A DNA stretch of 64,000 nucleotides from Methylomonas sp. (GTDB taxonomy: Bacteria > Pseudomonadota > Gammaproteobacteria > Methylococcales > Methylomonadaceae), in NCBI GenBank assembly GCA_026988155.1, contig JALSLW010000026.1:1-64000 (forward strand). The letters are read 5' to 3'. Below are positions 2,992-44,933 of this stretch, one piece after another. The notes beneath the pieces are model-generated. The model did not search any database, was not told the origin of the DNA, and saw nothing but the letters and a program-made list of their open reading frames with translations. Within the stretch, counting starts at the first letter, position 1; every line of letters starts with the position of its first letter. Both the position numbers and the translations under genes were made by a program.

Positions 2992-3049
2992 AGGCAACTC
3001 GCAATAAATAACCCACCAATCTGGGTAGGTTATTTAATGCGCGTTACCT
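2992..3049. repeat. Short (58 bp) internally deleted copy of the MITE-like element seen at 10003-10163 and 11531-11689
   Basis: aggcaactcgcaataaataacccaccaat...ctgggtaggttatttaatgcgcgttacct: both ends kept, centre missing. Confidence 0.75.
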
Positions 3050-5025: not shown

Positions 5026-6550
5026 AAAGACTCCAATGCCTTTTACGAATTAACTGTATACAAAGCCGCAGTTCTTGTTCCATTGCTCTGTCTGTTTCCA
5101 GGAAACTGATTTTAGCCCTAAGCTGTTTAACTGTCGTTTGCAGTTCAGCACTGAGCAATTCTTGGTTTCCATGCAATTCAACCCCCTGAACCACTGCAAT
5201 TAATACAGCTGCAGCCACCTGCTCCGTTAGTTCTAATACCCTAATGCAATCTCTGGCTGCAATAGTACCCATGCTTACCTTGTCTTGATTATGACATTCG
5301 GTTGAGCGGGAAAACACGCTGGCTGGCATGGTGTTTTTTAATGCTTCCGCTGTCCAGGCTGAAACGGCTATCTGTACAGCTTTAAATCCATGATTCAGCA
5401 TAGCCTGTTCAGCTGATGCGCCTGACAAATTGGCTGGCAGGCCATGATTAAATTTGGTATCAACCAATTGGGCCATTTGCCTGTCCATTAAATCAGCCAG
5501 ATTGGCTATAGCGGTTTTCATGCTATCCATAGCAAAGGCTATATGTCCGCCATAAAAATGTCCGCCGTGCAAAACATGTTCCCCTTCGGCATCAATAATG
5601 GGATTATCGTTAGCGCTATTCAGTTCATTTTCTATAAATTGTCTAAACCAGGGCAAAGCGTCCTCCAGCACACCGATTACATGCGGTGCACAGCGCAGTG
5701 AATAGCGATCCTGCAACCGGCTGTCATTTCGCGGCGCTTCAGCTGACAATTGCAAATCAGCCCGTATTCTCTGGGCCACTTTTATTTGCCCATTGTGCGG
5801 TTTTACTGAAAACAGTTTCTCATCAAAATGATAGGCATTGCCTTTTAATGCAATGGAGGCCAGGCTGCTGATCCGGGTACATAACTGAGATAAATAGGCT
5901 GCCCGCTGATAAGCCAGACAGGCTATAGCCGTCATCACTGCGGTACCGTTCATTATTGCCAGCCCTTCTTTAGGCTTCAATACTAAGGGTGTAATTTTTA
6001 ATTGAGCAAAAACGTCTGCGGTAGGCCGTACTTTATTCTGATAAAGCACTTCTCTTTCTCCTGCTAGTACGGCAGCCAAATAAGATAATGGCGTTAAATC
6101 TCCACTGGCACCTACAGACCCTTCTTCTGGAATTAAAGGCAAAATATCCTGCTTTAATAGCGTGGCTATCTGTTGCAACAGTAAATAACGCACCCCAGAA
6201 TAACCTTGCGCCAAGCTATTTAAACGCACCATCAAAATAGCCCGGGTCTGCTGACTGTCAAAATGCCGGCCTAAGCCACAGCCATGAAAGGTGTATAGGT
6301 GCCTGGGCAGTTCGGCTACATTTTGCAGGGGAACTGATACATTACAGGAATCACCGTAGCCTGTGGTAACGCCATACACACAGCCTTCTTCCTGTAACAG
6401 TGCATCTATAAATTCGGCACCTTTATCAATCCGTTTAACAAATGCGCTGTCAGTGCTTAAAGCTGGCGTTTGATTTTGTTCGGCTATTGCACAAATGTTT
6501 TCTATTGTTAATGCCTGTCCACTGACTACTACGGGATGTTTACTGGTCAT
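5018..6550 (-). CDS. Aromatic amino acid (histidine/tyrosine-type) ammonia-lyase of aryl-polyene-type clusters
   Basis: MIO-forming ASG in GSVGASGDLTPLSYLAAVLAGE; GVTTGYGDS; QDRYSLRCAPHVIG; NSANDNPI. Confidence 0.88.
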   Translation of the reverse strand: MTSKHPVVVSGQALTIENICAIAEQNQTPALSTDSAFVKRIDKGAEFIDALLQEEGCVYGVTTGYGDSCNVSVPLQNVAELPRHLYTFHGCGLGRHFDSQQTRAILMVRLNSLAQGYSGVRYLLLQQIATLLKQDILPLIPEEGSVGASGDLTPLSYLAAVLAGEREVLYQNKVRPTADVFAQLKITPLVLKPKEGLAIMNGTAVMTAIACLAYQRAAYLSQLCTRISSLASIALKGNAYHFDEKLFSVKPHNGQIKVAQRIRADLQLSAEAPRNDSRLQDRYSLRCAPHVIGVLEDALPWFRQFIENELNSANDNPIIDAEGEHVLHGGHFYGGHIAFAMDSMKTAIANLADLMDRQMAQLVDTKFNHGLPANLSGASAEQAMLNHGFKAVQIAVSAWTAEALKNTMPASVFSRSTECHNQDKVSMGTIAARDCIRVLELTEQVAAAVLIAVVQGVELHGNQELLSAELQTTVKQLRAKISFLETDRAMEQELRLCIQLIRKRHWSLYE

Positions 6551-7466
6551 CTATTTGCCAAAAGTCGTAAAAATTAAACCACTGCATAGGTGCTTTAGCA
6601 CAATAATGTTGCAGTCTTTCTGCAAACTTTTCTACATATTGCTGGATCACTGCTGTTCTTTGTTTTCTAGGAACACCCTGAGCATCACTGAAATGATCAA
6701 AATAAATCACCTGTTTATCCTGCTCCTTTATGCAGAATAAAGTGAAAACTGGGCATTTTAGCAATAATGCCAGTATAAAGGGGCCTTGGGGAAATGATGC
6801 AGGCTGTCCTAAAAAACTTGCCTGGGCAACTCTGCCAGTTGCGCCTACAGGCGTTCTGTCGGCAGCAATAATAACCATCTCCCCTGCATCAATTTTATCC
6901 TGAAGCAGCATTGCGGTTGATGCATTGACGCTAGTAACCTGTATCAGATTCAGTTTTCCTGAGTCAGCATATTTATTCAGCAAGGTATTAAATTTCTCTG
7001 TATGTTTGGTATGCACTAATACATTAATGGTAACCTTGCTTCTTAACTTAGCAATTACTCTGCATACTTCTAAATTGCCTAGGTGCGAACCAAAAAGCAA
7101 CACCCCCTGCCCTTTATCAATATGGCTGATAACTGCATCCCTTCCGTGATATTCTATATCATCTAGGCTCAAGGTTCCGCTCCAGGCAGCTAATTTGTCA
7201 ATTAATGCATTGGCAAAACTGATGAAATGCAGGTAGCTGCCTTTTAAACTGCCCTTAATGGATGGGTCATCTTTAAAAGCCGAGATTCTGTCTAAATATT
7301 CTCGGCTTGCGCGCCTTCCTTTGCCATTGAGCAGCCAATAATAACTGACGACAGGGTATAAAAAAAACTGCAGAACTTTTCGCCCAAAAATGAGATACAC
7401 TTTTAATAAAAAGGCCATCCCCCAGACTAGGCCGCGCTCTTCAATTTGTGACCAATGACTCCTCAA
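6540..7466 (-). CDS. LpxL/HtrB-like lysophospholipid acyltransferase (ApeJ-type acyltransferase)
   Basis: GVLLFGSHLGNLEVCR; AADRTPVGATGRVAQASFLGQPASFPQGPF. Confidence 0.8.
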   Translation of the reverse strand: MRSHWSQIEERGLVWGMAFLLKVYLIFGRKVLQFFLYPVVSYYWLLNGKGRRASREYLDRISAFKDDPSIKGSLKGSYLHFISFANALIDKLAAWSGTLSLDDIEYHGRDAVISHIDKGQGVLLFGSHLGNLEVCRVIAKLRSKVTINVLVHTKHTEKFNTLLNKYADSGKLNLIQVTSVNASTAMLLQDKIDAGEMVIIAADRTPVGATGRVAQASFLGQPASFPQGPFILALLLKCPVFTLFCIKEQDKQVIYFDHFSDAQGVPRKQRTAVIQQYVEKFAERLQHYCAKAPMQWFNFYDFWQIDDQ

Positions 7467-8197
7467 CTCAACTTCCTCAATAATAAGACGGGCAATCGCC
7501 TCAACATACCAAAAAAGAGCTGGGTATGCTTTTTAGATATTAATAGGTTGTCCTGCAGCATATTAAAATGCGAAACGCCATCCAATGGGTATTGAACTTC
7601 TGTAGGTATATTAATTATCTTTACTCCCTGCCAGTATAAACGGACAACAATATCTATATCAAAATCCATTCTCTGCCCAAGCTCAGCCGTTTGCAATAGC
7701 TGATCGACTGCCACTAATGGATAGCAGCGAAAACCGCACATGCCATCTTTTATCGAAAATGACAGCGTGTTAATCCAAATCCATAGATTGGTAAACTTTC
7801 GCCCATACAGTCTTTTTTTGGGAACCGATACATCAAAAATAGGCTGTCCTAAAACCATCCGTTCAGGATATTTCTCGCTGGCCTGTAAAAAACAGTTAAT
7901 ATCATCAAATTGATGCTGTCCATCGGCATCAATTTGAATGGCATGACTAAAGCCTTTATTAATTGCTAACTTTAATCCATCAACTACGGCTGCACCTTTG
8001 CCGCCATTTTTTTTCCGTTCAAGCAAGGTAACCCATTCACTATGCTGCCGCCCTATATGTCGCAATACATTTGAACACTCAGGCGAACTGCCATCGTTTA
8101 TCAAAAAGCATCGCAAGCCAAGAGGTTCAAGATGCCCAATCACTTTAGCAATGGCATGCTGATGATTATAGACAGGTACAATAATGCAGGCCTTCAT
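7463..8197 (-). CDS. Family 2 glycosyltransferase
   Basis: ACIIVPVYNHQHAIAKVI...CFLINDGSS...KNGGKGAAVVDGL...HAIQIDADGQHQFDDI. Confidence 0.85.
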   Translation of the reverse strand: MKACIIVPVYNHQHAIAKVIGHLEPLGLRCFLINDGSSPECSNVLRHIGRQHSEWVTLLERKKNGGKGAAVVDGLKLAINKGFSHAIQIDADGQHQFDDINCFLQASEKYPERMVLGQPIFDVSVPKKRLYGRKFTNLWIWINTLSFSIKDGMCGFRCYPLVAVDQLLQTAELGQRMDFDIDIVVRLYWQGVKIINIPTEVQYPLDGVSHFNMLQDNLLISKKHTQLFFGMLRRLPVLLLRKLS

Positions 8198-9960
8198 TCA
8201 TTTTCTCCATACACCATTCGTCCAGAACTATGAACTTGGGTCGCTGATGCTATTTCAAAATATAATTTCCCGCTATCTGCTTTCCAGCTTAGGTTAATAG
8301 TAATAATAGCTCCTGGCTGAATGATTTTTTTAAATTTGATTACTTCCATCCGCAAAAAAGGTGCGTTAATGGCAAAAAACAGTTTAGCCAACTGTTCTGC
8401 CCAAGCCAATTGTGCAACGCCTGGCAATATTGGCTGATCAGGGAAATGGCCTGAAAAATATATTAAACTGGGCAATACCTTACATTGCAGTTCAACTGTT
8501 TGCTGATGAATATTGCAATACAGTATTTGCGGGGAACTGTGCGAGTCTAAAGAAAACACCTGAACCAGCAACTCTCTATTAATCTTGCCTAGAGCAGAAA
8601 GAGGCAAAGCTTGCATAAACAGCCATTTTTTTGGCAAAACCACGGTTTCAAAACTATCCATCAGCTGCTTCCTTAACTGCTTAATCAGACTTGCCCTGCC
8701 ATGGCGCTGAAAATACTCGTGTCCACTATCAGTTAATACTAAGGCGCTGGCAATTTTATCTCTTTTATCCGTTACTAATAGAGCATAGGCCTGCTTAATC
8801 CAGCCACTGCTTTCTAAAGCCTGTTCCAGTTCGTCTAATGACAATCTCTTTTCTTCCATTTTCACTATCCGGTCGAGTCGCCCCTGCAGTTCAAACTGGC
8901 CGTTTGCTAGCAGTTTAATTTTATCATCCATTTTGTAGGCATTTATATTTGTATAATCTCCCTTTATTCTACCTTTCCTAAGAAGGAGACTTTTGTCACT
9001 TGGCTGTTTTGTTAAATAGGGAGAGGATAAATAACTTTGGCCCATATCATCTACTGAAATGTTAATGCCATCAAATGCTGTCCATAAAGCATCATCTACG
9101 CTTTGTCTCCAGGCAATGCCGCCTGTCTCAGAACTGCCGTATATTTCTATCACTTTTTGCTGGCCGTACTGAAAGAGCTGCATCGCTGATTCTGAGGGCA
9201 AAGCACCGCCTGAACTAAACAGTGCCTTCATTTTTGACACCTCTTGCCATGGGGTCATGTCATCCAGTCTCTTTAACTGTGCAGGACTGGCAACCCAGCA
9301 GGCAGAAATATCCATTGCAGCCTTTAATAAAGGCTCAGGGCTAAGATACATTTCACTATAAAAACACCGTCCAGTGGCTAATGGCCATAGCACTCGAAAT
9401 AATAAGCCATAGATATGCTGGTGACTGACTGTCGCCAAAACTTGGGCATCGCCAAGCGCAGCCCCCCAGCATTGCTCTAAAGTTTCTATTTCAGTTTGAA
9501 ATTGCTGAAGTGTTTTGGGGATTTCCTTAGCTTGACCGCTAGAGCCAGAAGTAAAAATAATTATGGCCGACTTTTTTAGATCAAGAGGCTCCAGTTCAAA
9601 ATCCCCGGATTCAATGGCCTCAACAGAAGCCTCATTACCTTTCCAATCGCCTAACAGTAAACAGCCCCGCTCAGTTAGCTGTGCAGCTGTTGCAGACTTA
9701 CTGTTAGGTGCAATCCAGATTTTTTTGCCGCAATGCAATAATGCAAACAGACTGACTGAAAAGGGATAAGCCTGCTCATAATAAAGTGCGAATTTACGTT
9801 TTTTTAATTTAGAAAGAGAAGCCGCCAATTGTTTAACTTCAGCACTAAACTTTTCATTGTCTATTGTCTCGCAGCCATAAACAGCTAAAGGATATTGTCT
9901 GTTAGAGGATAATGCACAGCAGGAAAGTGAAGGAATAACAGCTCTATGTTTAAATGTCAT
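8194..9960 (-). CDS. AMP-dependent acyl ligase fused to C-terminal hotdog dehydratase (ApeH-ApeI-like fusion)
   Basis: AMP-binding motif IIIFTSGSSGQAKEIPKT; C-terminus FSGHFPDQPILPGVAQLAWAEQLAK (FabZ/ApeI-like hotdog). Confidence 0.8.
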   Translation of the reverse strand: MTFKHRAVIPSLSCCALSSNRQYPLAVYGCETIDNEKFSAEVKQLAASLSKLKKRKFALYYEQAYPFSVSLFALLHCGKKIWIAPNSKSATAAQLTERGCLLLGDWKGNEASVEAIESGDFELEPLDLKKSAIIIFTSGSSGQAKEIPKTLQQFQTEIETLEQCWGAALGDAQVLATVSHQHIYGLLFRVLWPLATGRCFYSEMYLSPEPLLKAAMDISACWVASPAQLKRLDDMTPWQEVSKMKALFSSGGALPSESAMQLFQYGQQKVIEIYGSSETGGIAWRQSVDDALWTAFDGINISVDDMGQSYLSSPYLTKQPSDKSLLLRKGRIKGDYTNINAYKMDDKIKLLANGQFELQGRLDRIVKMEEKRLSLDELEQALESSGWIKQAYALLVTDKRDKIASALVLTDSGHEYFQRHGRASLIKQLRKQLMDSFETVVLPKKWLFMQALPLSALGKINRELLVQVFSLDSHSSPQILYCNIHQQTVELQCKVLPSLIYFSGHFPDQPILPGVAQLAWAEQLAKLFFAINAPFLRMEVIKFKKIIQPGAIITINLSWKADSGKLYFEIASATQVHSSGRMVYGENE

Positions 9961-10002
9961 GAACTCAGCAGAATAGCCGTTACGAATATATTTTTAGGTA
10001 AT

Positions 10003-10163
10003 AAGGCAACTCGCAATAAATAACCCACCAATCTTGCTTGTCTTTTTATCCGTCTTCAGCGTTGCAATTTCGGTCAAATAGCTTGCTATGCTCCCTTCGT
10101 TGCGCCTTGAAGACGAATAAAAATCCTGCGCAATCTGGGTAGCTTATTTAATGCGCGTTACCT
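10003..10163. repeat. MITE-like element, copy A (~160 bp, imperfect terminal inverted repeats)
   Basis: aaggcaactcgcaataaataacccacc...gggtagcttatttaatgcgcgttacct; nearly identical to 11531-11689; interior is itself an inverted repeat (ccgtcttcagcgttgcaa / ttgcgccttgaagacg). Confidence 0.85.
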
Positions 10164-10376
10164 AACATGATATTAAAACTAATTCTGCCATTTTTTACCC
10201 TTCCATAATTGGCTAAACCTTAATGGAAGCTACAAAACAAAAGAGGCTTAAATCGCCCATTGATCAGCCATATTTTTATGAATGGCAAACTGATATTTTC
10301 TAAGGAATTCAGCTTAGGCAGTGATATAGTAAAGTTATTTAGAAAAAGATACAAGTAAGTCAGTTCACAACTGATT

Positions 10377-10392
10377 TGTGATTAAAATCACA
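10377..10392. promoter_or_regulatory. CRP-like palindrome TGTGATTAAAATCACA
   Basis: Perfect TGTGA-N6-TCACA. Confidence 0.5.
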
Positions 10393-10460
10393 CAATTCCC
10401 TTTTAGATTATCTTCTAAGTGGTTATTACAAATAATAAATGTGAAGTTGCACACAGTTTC

Positions 10461-10469
10461 TGTGGATAA
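10461..10469 (-). promoter_or_regulatory. Consensus DnaA box TTATCCACA (as tgtggataa), repeat 1; a second near-consensus box tgtggatta at 10473-10481
   Basis: Exact 9-mer match. Confidence 0.6.
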
Positions 10470-10854
10470 CTCTGTGGATTACTCGTTCAAAAAACCTCTT
10501 AGTCCATGAATTTATTACAGTCACATTACTTTGCATTTTTTTTATACATAAAAATATATCTTACAAATTCAGTTACTTATATATAAAAATAGCTATTTAA
10601 AAAACAATAAATAAAATATTTTTCTCACTCGGGTTGGAGGAGAATTACTTGTGGATTAAATTGTGAAACAAATCACATTTATGCAAATACCTTGGTAAAT
10701 AATATATTTTATGCTTATGCACCAAGCATCTTTTTCCCCGTGTTTTAATCAGCCTGCTAATGGAAAAACGGTTTCCTTTAAAATCAGACCTTTAACCTTT
10801 TTTAACTGGCAATTAGATATTTAATAAAATAAATGTGAAGTTGCACACAGTTTC

Positions 10855-10863
10855 TGTGGATAA
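10855..10863 (-). promoter_or_regulatory. Consensus DnaA box TTATCCACA (as tgtggataa), repeat 2
   Basis: Exact 9-mer match. Confidence 0.6.
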
Positions 10864-11258
10864 CTCTGTGAGTTTCTCGTTTAAAAAACACCTTAGTACA
10901 TGAATTCATTACCGTTACATTAATTTGCGCCTTTTTTATACACAAAATTATCTTAATTAAAATCATAAGCTTAACTACGCCAATAGCTATTTTTTGATAT
11001 ATCAAAAAAAAATTTCTTAATTGAATTTTAAAAAAAAACAAATTGTGGATTAAATTGTGAAACAAATCACATTTATGCAAATACCTTGGTAAAAAATCAT
11101 ACCTCTGCTTACACAGCAAATATCACTTATCTCTTCCTCCATGTTTTAAACAGATTGCTAATGAAAAAATCTGTTCCTTTTAAAATCAAATATTTAACTT
11201 TTTATTTAACTGCCAACTAGATATTTCATAAAATAAATGTGAAGTTGCACACAGTTTC

Positions 11259-11267
11259 TGTGGATAA
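11259..11267 (-). promoter_or_regulatory. Consensus DnaA box TTATCCACA (as tgtggataa), repeat 3
   Basis: Exact 9-mer match. Confidence 0.6.
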
Positions 11268-11530
11268 CTCTGTGAGTTTCTCGTTTAAAAAACATCTTAG
11301 TTCATGAATTTATTACCGTTGCATTAATTTGCGCCTTTTTTATACACAAAATTATTTTAATTGAAATCATAATCTTAACTACGTCAACAGCTATTTTTTA
11401 AAATATCAAAATAAAATTTTCTTAATCAAATTTGAAAAAAAACAACTTGTGGATTAAATTGTGAAACAAATCACATTTATGCAAATATCTTGGTAAAAAA
11501 ACAATCATCTCTTTTCCGCGTTTTAACCTA

Positions 11531-11689
11531 AGGCAACGCGCAATAAATAACCCACCAATCTTGCTTGTCTTTTATCCGTCTTCAGCGTTGCAACTTCGGT
11601 CACATAGCTTGCTATGCTCCCTTCGTTGCGCCTTGAAGACGAATAAAAATCCTGCGCAATATGGGTAGGTTATTTAATGCGCGTTACCT
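11531..11689. repeat. MITE-like element, copy B (same orientation as copy A)
   Basis: aggcaacgcgcaataaataacccacc...gggtaggttatttaatgcgcgttacct. Confidence 0.85.
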
Positions 11690-11986
11690 AAATAAATCCG
11701 TGAAGCGTAATACATTCCCTCATCTGGTGAATAGTGCAAAACTGGATTAAACAGTTTATTTAACAAGTTACAGTTAAACTAAGCGTTTAACTGATTTATT
11801 TATTTAACCAAATTGCTCATAGTCAGATAGAAAGTAGAGAGGCTCCGAGCAATACTTTTAAGACACTGCTTATTAAATTAGCACTGCTTAAGGAAGCAAC
11901 ATAGCATTAGGGTTAGATAGAATTTACTGTTAAACTTAAATTTCTGTAACTACTCAGCATATTGTTATTGGAATAATTAATTGCAC

Positions 11987-12070
11987 TGTCATTTCGACCA
12001 TCGGGAGAAATCTTGATCATTGTATGATGAAAATCCTAGTGCAAGATTCCTCGTTCCACTCGGAATGACA
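11987..12070. repeat. Short inverted-repeat element (TGTCATTTCGACC ... CACTCGGAATGACA)
   Basis: Imperfect terminal inverted repeats with internal gagaaatctt / aagattcctc; class of short dispersed intergenic repeat. Confidence 0.6.
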
Positions 12071-12208
12071 AATTATGCTGACTAGCTACAAATTTCTTAT
12101 CTCCTTCCCTCTCCATTTCCATAGGAAGACGCTAAAAACAGATAGCTGTCGAAGTTTTAAGAGAAAACCGTAAGCAACTAATATTTATAGATTTAAAGGT
12201 TAAATATT

Positions 12209-13534
12209 TTGAAAAATATAAACGCATATAGATCTGTCAATCTGAACTGTCGCATTTTGATACCCATCGGTATCGGGCTTATTTTATTGCTTTGCATTGG
12301 CATCTATCTTTCTCAGAAACAGTTCGAAGCATCGCTGGAAAAACATGTTTCACAACGCATAGAAATGGCGACAAAGGAATATAGCCGAAAAATTGAACAA
12401 CAAACCGATATTCTGGAATCCACTTTACAGTTGCTAAGTAACAACCCCACCCTGATCAATACTTTTACTGCCAGAAACAGGTCTGCACTAATAAAACTGG
12501 TCAGCCCTATATATCAGAGACTGGCCAAACAGCTGCATATCAGTCATATTTACTTTAGTGATCCGCAGCGAGTTGTCTTTTTACGTGCACATAACTCAAA
12601 AAGCTATGGTGATACTATAAACCGGCAAACAACTTTATCTGCTGAACAAACGAATGCCATGGTAACTGGTGTTGATCTAGGCGTTTTAGGAACGCTAACT
12701 TTACGCTCAGTAACACCATGGCATGATAAAAATGGAAATAAAATCGGCTTTATCGAGTTTGGGATCAGAATAAACCAAATACTTAAAGAAATATCAGATT
12801 TGAATGAGTTCGGTTTATTCCTAGCCATTCAGAAATCTAAATTATCTCAGGATCAATGGGAAGAAGGTCAGCACATATTTGGTGGCCTGTCTATTTGGCA
12901 TCAATATAAAAACTTTGCCGTTTCAAATAAATTTAGGCTAAGCGAAAATCTATTTAACAGTACACCGAACCTTGACCTTATTCTGCAAGCAAAGCCAGGC
13001 CAGGGGCCTAAACAGTCATTCTCAGGAAAAACCTATCAATGGCAGCACATTCCGTTAGATTCTCTTGATCAAAAAAATATTGGTCAAATTTTTATTGCTG
13101 TAGACATAAGTGACTGGATAACCGGCCATCAAAAAAATACCGTCAATTTTATTGCTCTATACCTTTTAACATCCTTTCTCTTGATACTGATTCTTTATCG
13201 GTTTACTAATCGTGCCCAGTTTGCTGAAAAAAAGCTGCACAATTCAATGCTGCGGCTCAGCCAAATGTCAAGCAACCTTGAAACTGCTCAGCGTATTGCA
13301 AACATTGGCAGCTGGGAACTGGAAATTCCATCTAATAAAATGCACTGGTCAGATGAAGTCTTTCAAATTTTCCATATTGATAAAAATAATTTTGATGCAT
13401 CGTATGATGCATTTCTTGAGGCAATACACCCCGAAGATAGGGAGAAAATAAAAAGGGCTTATACCAATTCACTAAAGAATAAGAAACCTTATGTGTATAG
13501 TTTCACCACTTTATACCAGATTTTTCTAGCTTAA
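12209..13534 (+). pseudogene. Membrane sensor (periplasmic Cache-like domain + TM + PAS) lacking any output domain
   Basis: N-terminal TM, ~270-aa periplasmic segment, second TM (VNFIALYLLTSFLLILILYRF), PAS start (RIANIGSWELEIPSNKMHWSDEVFQIF); stops within the PAS fold (YVYSFTTLYQIFLA*). Confidence 0.65.
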
Positions 13535-21849: not shown

Positions 21850-21865
21850 TGTGACGAACATCACA
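21850..21865. promoter_or_regulatory. CRP-like palindrome TGTGACGAACATCACA
   Basis: Perfect TGTGA-N6-TCACA upstream of the 22273 gene. Confidence 0.55.
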
Positions 21866-24523: not shown

Positions 24524-24659
24524 TATATTATGGGATCGCGCACGGGATAACTTGAGCAAATGTCGTAGAGTTTTTGAGTATATTTAAGACTTAGAAATAG
24601 TTACATAGCTGATTATGAAACTATTTCTACAGTGCAAAATACGTACAAAAAAAAAAGTC

Positions 24660-24906: not shown

Positions 24907-24922
24907 TGTGACGAACATCACA
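24907..24922. promoter_or_regulatory. CRP-like palindrome TGTGACGAACATCACA
   Basis: Identical to 21850-21865, with similar flanks (tatgtatatttaatattgttttTGTGACGAACATCACAaaaa). Confidence 0.55.
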
Positions 24923-42185: not shown

Positions 42186-43048
42186 TAAAACTGCATGCCT
42201 TCCATTTGCATTAATTTCTTTGCCGCAAGATGAGCTGCTGTAGTATCAGGATAAGTTACCGTTAAGTGAGTTAAGTAGTCTCGTGCTTTAGCCATATTTT
42301 TCTGTTCAAACTCAATATAGCCTATTTTTAATAGAGCATCTGGCACTTTTGGGCTGTCAGAATAGTCTTTTAGCAACGTAAGAAAGGCCTGTTTTGCCAT
42401 TCCCAGCTTTTGGTTCACTTTATAAGCTTCACCTAGCCAATATTGGGAATTATCAGCATACTCACTTGTCGGCGAATCTGCCAATAAAGCTTTAAATTCA
42501 GATATTGCCCGGCTATTATGCCCGTTTCTTAATAATTCATACGCTGACTGATAGCGAGCTTTATCAGTCATAGTGATAGCGGGGGCATTATCTGCAACGA
42601 CTGTTTCAGAAGGACTGTAATCAGCATCCCTTGGTTTCGACCGGACCTGCTCTTCCGCAGAAGCAACTGCTTTTGGTGATACGGTTAATGAAGAATCTGC
42701 TGTTTCAAGATTTTGTTCAACTGAATCAATTGCGACAGTTCCAGTTTTTACACCCGTGATTTCCTGTAAGCGCAAATCCAGATCAGAATATATATTTCTC
42801 TGACGTTTTTTTAAATCATCAATCGTCTGAGACTGTTCTTCAACCATCCCTCTAAGCTGCTGAACTTCAAGCTGCAATTGCTCTAATCGACCTAGCATCT
42901 CAAACATTGCATTTGCAGATGGTGCAGCTGAACCATTACTGGAAGACCCGCCGGGATAAATTGAATTATCAACCACCGGTGGCAATACTCTGGATTCAGC
43001 ATAAACACTGGAACAGGCTAGTAGCATTACAAGCAGTATCTTGTTCAT
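42185..43048 (-). CDS. cpoB: Tol-Pal system protein CpoB/YbgF
   Basis: Signal peptide, coiled coil, TPR-like YQSAYELLRNGHNSRAISEFKALLADSPTSEYADNSQYWLGEAYKV; in tol-pal operon. Confidence 0.92.
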   Translation of the reverse strand: MNKILLVMLLACSSVYAESRVLPPVVDNSIYPGGSSSNGSAAPSANAMFEMLGRLEQLQLEVQQLRGMVEEQSQTIDDLKKRQRNIYSDLDLRLQEITGVKTGTVAIDSVEQNLETADSSLTVSPKAVASAEEQVRSKPRDADYSPSETVVADNAPAITMTDKARYQSAYELLRNGHNSRAISEFKALLADSPTSEYADNSQYWLGEAYKVNQKLGMAKQAFLTLLKDYSDSPKVPDALLKIGYIEFEQKNMAKARDYLTHLTVTYPDTTAAHLAAKKLMQMEGMQF

Positions 43049-43624
43049 TTACTGCACCCGATAGGCTATTTCAACTCGACGGTTTAGCTGCAGGGAGGCC
43101 AGATCCATTCCTTCTGCAACTGGCTTTTCTTCGCCATAACTGACAATTTCCAACTGATTGCCAGAAACGCCCTGTACTTTCATCATTCTAAAAACTGCTT
43201 TAGCCCGCTGTTCGCCCAAAGCAATATTATATTCACGGGAGCCCAGCTCATCCGTATGCCCTTCCAGGATAACTTTTTGTCCAGGATGACTCAATAAATA
43301 CTGTGCATGTGCCGCTATAATCGGTATAAATTCTTGCTGTATCTGACTGCTATCATGCATAAAATAGATAGTACGCTTTGACAGCGGATTGGCAGGATCA
43401 CTAAATTCAGCTCCTAAACGGTTCATGTCAAAATCACCAGAGGCATCCAATCCCTCAGTTGCCAATGCATTGCCCTCTCTGTTTAAGTCACCTTCTAACA
43501 GGCCACTCTTTTTATCTGTTGAGCTACAACCTGACAGGATTGCAGTACCTACTACTAAAACTAACGTTATTATATTGATTTTCATTTCTAATCTCTTTGC
43601 TGGAAGTACTTTAATTTTAAACAC
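43049..43624 (-). CDS. pal: Peptidoglycan-associated lipoprotein
   Basis: Lipobox ILSGCSS; OmpA-like VILEGHTDELGSREYNIALGEQRAKAV. Confidence 0.93.
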   Translation of the reverse strand: MFKIKVLPAKRLEMKINIITLVLVVGTAILSGCSSTDKKSGLLEGDLNREGNALATEGLDASGDFDMNRLGAEFSDPANPLSKRTIYFMHDSSQIQQEFIPIIAAHAQYLLSHPGQKVILEGHTDELGSREYNIALGEQRAKAVFRMMKVQGVSGNQLEIVSYGEEKPVAEGMDLASLQLNRRVEIAYRVQ

Positions 43625-43640
43625 AAGGGCTTAATGAAGT

Positions 43641-44933
43641 TTAAGGCGACCACGCTGGCTCACGTACATCGCCACTGTCGAAGGTGAAACTCTGCTGCAT
43701 TCTACCATCCACTGACACAGCGGATAAAACACTTTTCCTGCCCCTTTTTGAGGCATATAAAACCATGTCTCCATTACCTGAAAAGCTTGGTGATTCATCA
43801 TATTTTCCAGCCGTCAAGACATTTACAGTATGCGTTGCAATATCCATCACCGCAATTCTATAGTCACCTCTATTGGCATGAACCATAGCGATGCTTTTTC
43901 CATCCGATGAAAATTGTCCCCTGGCATTATAATCGCCTTCAAAAGTCAACCTTTTGGCTACCCCGCCCTGACTGGGGATAGTATACAGCTGAGGCTTACC
44001 GCCACGATTGGAAGTATAGACAATCGTCTTTCCATCAGGTGACCAGGTTGGTTCCGTATCAATTGCATAGCTTTTTGTCACCCTCAACAGCAGTTTATTG
44101 CTCAAGTTTAATACATAGATATCTGGACTGCCATCTTTAGACAAGGTTAAAGCAAGCCGTGTGCCATCAGGAGAAAAGGCGGGGGCTCCATTAATGCCTT
44201 TATAAGAAGAAACTTTAATTCTTTTGCCACTTGCAAGAGTTTGAATATAAATGGCTGAACGCTTGCTCTCAAAAGAAACGTAAGCAATTTTTTTGCCGTC
44301 AGGCGACCAGGCAGGGGACATTAATGGCTCTCTGGAAGAGGCTATCGATCTTGGGTTAAAGCCATCTGCATCCGCAATTAGCAATTTATAGCGTTTCTTT
44401 TTGCTGGCCTGGTCTTTAGTAGTTGTAACATAGGCAATCCGACTGCTAAAAACACCCGGTTTACCCGTTAATTTTTCATAAACCAGATCACTGATATGAT
44501 GTGCAGTCCGTCTCAATTCATGCTTTGCAACCATTAACTGATAACCCTGCAAACGCTCACGCTTATAAACATCAAACAGCTGAAACCGTACCTGATATTG
44601 ATCTGCTATTTCATTCACCTGTCCGATAAGCAAATATTCCTGCCCTAAAGCCTGCCAGTTTCTAAACCTGACCTTATCCGCTTCTGTTGGTTTAGTCAGC
44701 ATATCCCGTTCCAGCAAGGTCTTAAACAGCCCGCTTCGCGTCAAATCGGCTTTAACAACAGCAGACAAGTCAACGGGTGCCTGCGCAGCAGCACCCTGCC
44801 AGCCAAATGGGACCACTGCGATGGGTACTGCTGTTTCATCACCTTTGGTTATTTCTATTGTCAATTCAGCCTGAGCTAAAGAAACAAAGAAAATGGCAAA
44901 ACTAATGAATAAAATTTTTTTAAATAGATACAT
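43641..44933 (-). CDS. tolB: Tol-Pal system beta-propeller TolB
   Basis: WSPDGKKIAYVSFESKRSAIYIQ and repeated PxWSPDGK propeller motifs. Confidence 0.95.
   Translation of the reverse strand: MYLFKKILFISFAIFFVSLAQAELTIEITKGDETAVPIAVVPFGWQGAAAQAPVDLSAVVKADLTRSGLFKTLLERDMLTKPTEADKVRFRNWQALGQEYLLIGQVNEIADQYQVRFQLFDVYKRERLQGYQLMVAKHELRRTAHHISDLVYEKLTGKPGVFSSRIAYVTTTKDQASKKKRYKLLIADADGFNPRSIASSREPLMSPAWSPDGKKIAYVSFESKRSAIYIQTLASGKRIKVSSYKGINGAPAFSPDGTRLALTLSKDGSPDIYVLNLSNKLLLRVTKSYAIDTEPTWSPDGKTIVYTSNRGGKPQLYTIPSQGGVAKRLTFEGDYNARGQFSSDGKSIAMVHANRGDYRIAVMDIATHTVNVLTAGKYDESPSFSGNGDMVLYASKRGRKSVLSAVSVDGRMQQSFTFDSGDVREPAWSP

Follow-up and report, generated by a model that had tools for sequence, protein, structure and literature searches.

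Introduction

DARS elements have been characterised mainly in E. coli, which carries two of them, DARS1 and DARS2, each in a single copy. Their core comprises three DnaA boxes, box I being opposed to boxes II and III, with equal spacing in DARS1 and DARS2 (PMC5742627, PMC8682772), and the two elements sit in the uvrB and mutH promoters (PMC5835720). Binding of ADP-DnaA head to head on boxes I and II leads to ADP release; DARS2 is activated by IHF and Fis, and additional DARS copies cause more initiation (PMC4245941, PMC8682772, PMC5742627, PMC5835720). DARS-like sequences have already been reported in many proteobacteria (PMC10380432), and the element described here is therefore of a known kind.

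In E. coli K-12 we confirmed a −14/0/+12 geometry, counted from box II with box I inverted, for the DARS1 core in the bioD–uvrB gap (CAGTTATCCACTATTCCTGTGGATAACCATGTGTATTAGAG) and for the DARS2 core upstream of mutH (TTATTCACC...TGTGGATAG...TGTGAAGAA). Here we compare these elements with an array in the window, the whole stretch of 64,000 nucleotides of Methylomonas sp. DNA that was analysed. Judged from its sequence, this array is most probably (roughly 0.78) a tandem of three DARS-type elements with homology to both DARS1 and DARS2 of E. coli.

Results

Layout of the array and its flanks

The intergenic gap at 9960–12209 (2.2 kb) on contig C26 houses three direct repeats, each of about 400 bp, with start-to-start spacings of 394 and 404 bp. 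With unit 2 as reference, identity is 74% for unit 1 and 91% for unit 3, and the GC content of the array is 27%. The original prediction described three such tandem repeats, bracketed by two MITEs in one orientation, and placed in every repeat an exact DnaA box together with a near-consensus box and a CRP-like palindrome; every coordinate proved correct and the bracketing was confirmed. Matches to profile R1, described below, are given with the units.

10002–10165, + strand: MITE copy A, in the flank and outside the element
10404–10703, + strand: DARS-like unit 1 (direct-repeat family D1), the best preserved; R1 match at 10443–10583, 71.1 bits
10798–11097, + strand: DARS-like unit 2, direct repeat; R1 match at 10837–10976, 65.9 bits
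11202–11501, + strand: DARS-like unit 3, direct repeat with its 3′ end cut by MITE B; R1 match at 11241–11380, 65.2 bits
11529–11691, + strand: MITE copy B, inserted in the 3′ end of unit 3

The two MITEs are 96% identical. They are about 163 bp long, with inverted ends of about 22 bp and apparent TAA target duplications (IS5/Tourist-like), and a MITE remnant lies at 2992–3049 of the window. To the left of the array, an aryl-polyene-like operon (flavin oxidase, thioesterase, aromatic lyase, acyltransferase and AMP ligase) reads leftwards from 9960; to the right, a dCache/PAS sensor gene reads rightwards from 12209. The operon is adjoined by Type I-F cas3 (with a fused Cas2 domain) and cas1 at 54–2953, the left end of the window. 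A scan of the gap for promoters and terminators gave results at or below chance, with 9 promoter-like matches against 12.1 in shuffled sequences.

DnaA boxes of the core

The exact DnaA box TGTGGATAA is found at 10461, 10855 and 11259, and these are the only exact boxes in the 64 kb, where 0.66 would be expected. The near-consensus box TGTGGATTA is found at 10473, 10650, 11044 and 11448, the first of which had been predicted as an extra box of repeat 1. The core has one form in all three units: box II, at 0, is preceded by an inverted box I at −14 and followed by box III at +12, a geometry absent from 40 simulated 64-kb sequences.

10447–10481, + strand: core of unit 1, geometry −14/0/+12
10447–10455, inverted: box I of unit 1, TTGCACACA, 3 mismatches
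10461–10469: box II of unit 1, exact DnaA box
10473–10481: box III of unit 1, 1 mismatch
10841–10875, + strand: core of unit 2, box I with 3 mismatches and box II (10855–10863) exact
10867–10875: box III of unit 2, degenerate with 4 mismatches, marginal
11245–11279, + strand: core of unit 3, box I with 3 mismatches and box II (11259–11267) exact
11271–11279: box III of unit 3, degenerate with 4 mismatches, marginal

Mismatches in boxes I, II and III thus number 3, 0 and 1 in unit 1 and 3, 0 and 4 in units 2 and 3. Since box I has three mismatches in every unit, and units 2 and 3 also have a degenerate box III, activity is possibly weak, especially in these two.

Homology to E. coli DARS

When 61 genomes were searched at the nucleotide level, 32 of them contained short stretches matching the box region, and the loci found in this way share one layout: an inverted box at −14, an exact box and a direct box at +12. 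Profile R1 is a sequence-only profile of 146 positions built from 23 Methylococcales copies; the window units and E. coli were left out of its training, and two of the 23 copies (on C8 and C77) come from the genome of the window. Besides the three units (71.1, 65.9 and 65.2 bits), R1 matched E. coli DARS1 over its full length (34.8 bits, positions 4–144) and DARS2 over positions 6–143 (18.0 bits). The scan gave no match to oriC and none in the dnaA region of contig C1, and E. coli datA was matched weakly (12 bits, a partial match of 37 bases).

IHF-type sites, distal boxes and host factors

Downstream of the core, each unit carries an IHF-type site and, further on, a distal DnaA box in the orientation of box II.

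10567–10579, + strand: IHF-type site of unit 1 at +106, ATTCAGTTACTTA, 1 mismatch to WATCARNNNNTTR
10961–10973, + strand: IHF-type site of unit 2 at +106, AATCATAAGCTTA, 1 mismatch to WATCARNNNNTTR
11365–11377, + strand: IHF-type site of unit 3 at +106, AATCATAATCTTA, 1 mismatch to WATCARNNNNTTR
10650–10658, + strand: distal DnaA box of unit 1, TGTGGATTA, offset +189
11044–11052, + strand: distal DnaA box of unit 2, TGTGGATTA, offset +189
11448–11456, + strand: distal DnaA box of unit 3, TGTGGATTA, offset +189

Among 28 Methylococcales copies, 26 have an IHF-type site (WATCARNNNNTTR, at most 1 mismatch) at +105–108, where about 0.05 would be expected per copy. A same-orientation distal box at +175–193 was found in 24 of the 35 loci of a second set, a few of which recur from the first (0.05 expected per copy), and a reverse-oriented one in 1 of 35. 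Distal-box offsets cluster at 178–181, 188–193 and 201, with steps of roughly one turn of the helix between clusters, a grouping that is descriptive only because the copies are related. The units share with DARS the core geometry, homology to the E. coli elements and an IHF-type site at a fixed distance, the last as in the DARS2 subtype.

The genome of the window encodes both IhfA (its gene adjoins pheT) and IhfB (adjoining rpsA), each above its NCBIfam cut-off, and a Fis-like protein scoring 87 bits, below the curated cut-off of 99. Matches to the Fis consensus in the array were not above those in shuffled sequence, which makes that scan uninformative.

CRP-like sites and sequence constraint

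CRP-like palindromes with at most one mismatch number ten in the window, against 1.75 expected for the whole 64 kb, and seven of them (four perfect, three with one mismatch) fall in the 1.1 kb of the array. In each unit one overlaps box I, and a perfect TGTGA-N6-TCACA palindrome follows the distal box at +201.

10377–10392, no strand assigned: fourth perfect CRP palindrome, upstream of unit 1 and at the start of the predicted interval, TGTGATTAAAATCACA
10440–10455, no strand assigned: near-perfect CRP-like site on box I of unit 1, TGTGAAGTTGCACACA
10834–10849 and 11238–11253: TGTGAAGTTGCACACA overlapping box I of units 2 and 3
10662–10677, no strand assigned: perfect CRP palindrome beside the distal box of unit 1, TGTGAAACAAATCACA
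11056–11071 and 11460–11475: TGTGAAACAAATCACA beside the distal box of units 2 and 3

Elsewhere in the window, two identical perfect CRP-type palindromes (TGTGACGAACATCACA) at 21850–21865 and 24907–24922 flank a gene with a Big_9 domain. CRP itself is encoded in the genome (equivalog NF008732, 295 bits against a cut-off of 266) and is 54% identical to the E. coli protein.

DnaA and CRP sites are conserved together in the array while the spacers have diverged. A run of 43 bp identical in all three units covers the CRP-like site together with boxes I and II and reaches into the beginning of box III; a second of 41 bp covers the distal box, the CRP palindrome and the bases that follow; positions outside these two blocks show 60% identity among units (Fisher p = 4e-11, an optimistic value because the block borders were picked after viewing the alignment). 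Local gene conversion is an alternative source of the two blocks, but it would need to end exactly at their borders.

Two genomes of the same genus (G003 and G008) have no close CRP orthologue, and the DARS copies examined there lack perfect CRP palindromes; another genome (G021) possesses CRP, yet its examined DARS copy has no CRP site. The CRP sites therefore look particular to the array in the window. Conservation of the CRP/box I overlap across species was considered and rejected: an exact scan of about 85,000 species returned 11 loci in scattered taxa, and the overlap is not general because, on a rough estimate, chance gives a similar number with so many DARS cores. These 11 loci were reused as a check of the element architecture.

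Distribution, copy number and genomic position

The original prediction had recognised repeats of DnaA boxes and CRP palindromes and a control locus, and its reading as a DnaA-binding or DnaA-control locus is supported at the sequence level; it had missed the inverted box I at −14 together with the CRP-like site on it, the IHF-type site at +106 and the corresponding loci in other genomes, and it had not named DARS. The search of related genomes that it proposed did find the same element in relatives. R1 matches 189 of the 201 Methylococcales genomes (E ≤ 1e-5) and 330 of 377 sampled Gammaproteobacteria genomes (E ≤ 1e-4), mostly with at least one or two copies, class-wide copy counts being lower bounds because at most eight candidates were scored per genome. 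Across 127 tallied genomes of the window's family the median is five copies and the maximum at least 15, the scoring cap; in the eight single-contig genomes checked outside the order there are two copies each, as in E. coli. One genus of the family (g13) gave no DARS-like match in its six listed genomes (G020, G163, G165, G176, G187 and G199); nearly all of its sister genera have several copies, and g13 offers a natural loss for comparison.

The genome of the window holds five strong copies, three of them on C26 and one each on C8 and C77; C42 and C61 carry weaker matches. At 24549–26095 of C42 there is a cluster of DnaA boxes with R1 scores of 33.5 and 20.6 bits, which may represent either a DARS that has diverged or a datA-like locus. 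Tandem arrays recur in several genera, with four units in G008, three in G167 and two each in G013, G030 and G035.

A copy lies just upstream of priA on C77 (L040), in relatives (G013, G015, G018, G053), in G056 and in the more distant G234, G300, G527, G482 and G309, the priA-linked loci being L026, L033, L036, L039 and L040 and, further afield, L098, L102, L104, L106, L107 and L108. The position upstream of priA, shared by several Gammaproteobacteria families, seems to be a place for DARS throughout the class and differs from the uvrB and mutH sites of E. coli. In G015 the DARS next to priA is flanked on its other side by a divergent CHASE2/adenylate-guanylate cyclase gene (L033:3623–5854 and 6284–8233), a neighbour that is a second hint of a cyclic-nucleotide association, maybe by chance. 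In complete genomes, copies are biased toward dnaA, with a median distance of 0.35 of the half-chromosome in the family and 0.19 in the others (KS p 0.005 and 0.013, uncorrected for relatedness and with rounded genome sizes).

Discussion

Proposed mechanism

By analogy with E. coli, ADP-DnaA would bind head to head on boxes I and II; box III and the distal box would aid assembly, and an IHF bend at +106 would bring the distal-box region to the core. ADP would then be released and apo-DnaA would reload ATP, so that ATP-DnaA would rise with each copy and initiation at oriC, on the dnaA contig, would be favoured. Given the homology to DARS, the array should raise ATP-DnaA, and three copies would presumably multiply the dose. 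In this strain cAMP-CRP may gate the array in two ways, by contending with DnaA at box I and by occupying the site next to the distal box. Gating is suggested by the bases that the upstream CRP site has in common with box I, and it is the weakest step of the scheme. That tandem DARS with CRP sites at box I and the distal box would let cAMP-CRP gate ATP-DnaA regeneration, and so couple carbon and energy state to initiation in a methanotroph whose lineage has multiplied DARS elements, is a tentative proposal that we hold to be possible but on balance doubtful. Against a CRP role, CRP sites are not general among DARS copies elsewhere, and against the DARS reading itself stand the weak box I, the degenerate box III of units 2 and 3, the single mismatch of each IHF-type site, the Fis-consensus matches that do not exceed shuffles and the score of the Fis-like protein below its cut-off.

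Alternative readings

Exact DnaA boxes within AT-rich repeats of 27% GC had suggested an origin of replication: a second one on the chromosome, a relocated one, or that of an integrated plasmid. We consider all of these very improbable. The genome (G000; 3.40 Mb in 107 contigs, 99.97% complete) carries dnaA on another contig, C1, at about 42507–43829, as the proposed check of its location revealed; three exact DnaA boxes lie in or at the dnaA–dnaN gap, which is of origin type and is followed by dnaN, recF and gyrB (gene names on C1 other than dnaA were assigned by reading translations). An oriC is unique per chromosome and lies beside dnaA/dnaN or gidA, a place that C1 holds, whereas the element is multi-copy, and in relatives with one dnaA locus each genome has several copies at scattered positions. 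The genes scanned near the array include no rep gene, and the repeats are arranged as in DARS and not as in oriC. A dispersed, transposon-like repeat family, which the original prediction had set against its own reading, fits as far as dispersal goes; the repeat is a conserved regulatory element and not a transposon. We rejected a generic transposon-like repeat on the ground that one architecture is kept across the class while spacers diverge, only the flanking MITEs being mobile.

The weak box I and the degenerate box III of units 2 and 3, together with an exact box II and a distal box kept in all units, would also suit a DARS-derived array that now serves mainly as a DnaA titration locus, a sink binding DnaA without efficient nucleotide exchange. 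This is unlikely in our view, as the identical block covers the region of box I and not just box II, and the IHF-type site at +106 has been retained. Less probable still is a role chiefly in transcription control, in which CRP and DnaA would regulate the flanking operon or the dCache/PAS gene and the likeness to DARS would be secondary. The seven CRP-like sites, flanking genes that read away from the gap and the promoter location of E. coli DARS1 and DARS2 favour it; MITEs, however, stand between the array and both genes, promoter-like matches do not exceed those in shuffles, and DARS elements elsewhere adjoin different genes. A tandem array of DARS-type elements is the reading that we retain.

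Significance

In the majority of the Gammaproteobacteria sampled, R1 reveals a DARS-like element whose core, IHF-type site and distal box keep fixed distances and which often lies directly upstream of priA; in methane oxidisers it is amplified or tandem. The profile opens a way to study, in bacteria other than E. coli, how initiation is tuned by the number and position of DARS copies, and the array in the window offers a concrete, testable link from cAMP-CRP to DnaA reactivation. A literature search covering a minority of subscription papers gave no report of tandem DARS arrays, of amplification in a methanotroph family, of priA linkage or of CRP sites within DARS, which does not establish priority; it gave nothing pertinent joining CRP with DARS, and no paper joining Methylococcales with DnaA boxes.

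Comparison with known systems

The titration reading of the original prediction, a datA-like locus, was near in spirit, and E. coli datA does resemble the units in combining DnaA boxes and an IHF site outside oriC. Its geometry disagrees, being an opposed box pair 12 bp apart and not a 14/12 triplet, and with a partial R1 match of 12 bits we rejected identity with datA. E. coli DARS1 has the same core geometry as the units and a full-length R1 match; unlike the array it is a single copy without CRP sites, and it lacks a clear match to the IHF consensus where the units have their IHF-type site.

E. coli DARS2 is likewise a single copy, with boxes I and III less degenerate than in the array and a distal box that is exact but in reverse orientation. 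Its Fis sites (FBS2-3) are essential, whereas consensus matches in the window are not above shuffles, and it has one near-CRP palindrome only, against several in the array. That palindrome (CGTGACCCAGGTCACA, L045:289–304) is one mismatch from a perfect CRP palindrome, lies between the IHF region and the distal box and overlaps a Fis-consensus match; we found no mention of it in the literature. In its overall plan DARS2 matches the units: a three-box core with equal spacing and orientations, a downstream IHF-like site (+95 in DARS2, +106 in the window) and a further DnaA box (+197 in DARS2, +189 in the window).
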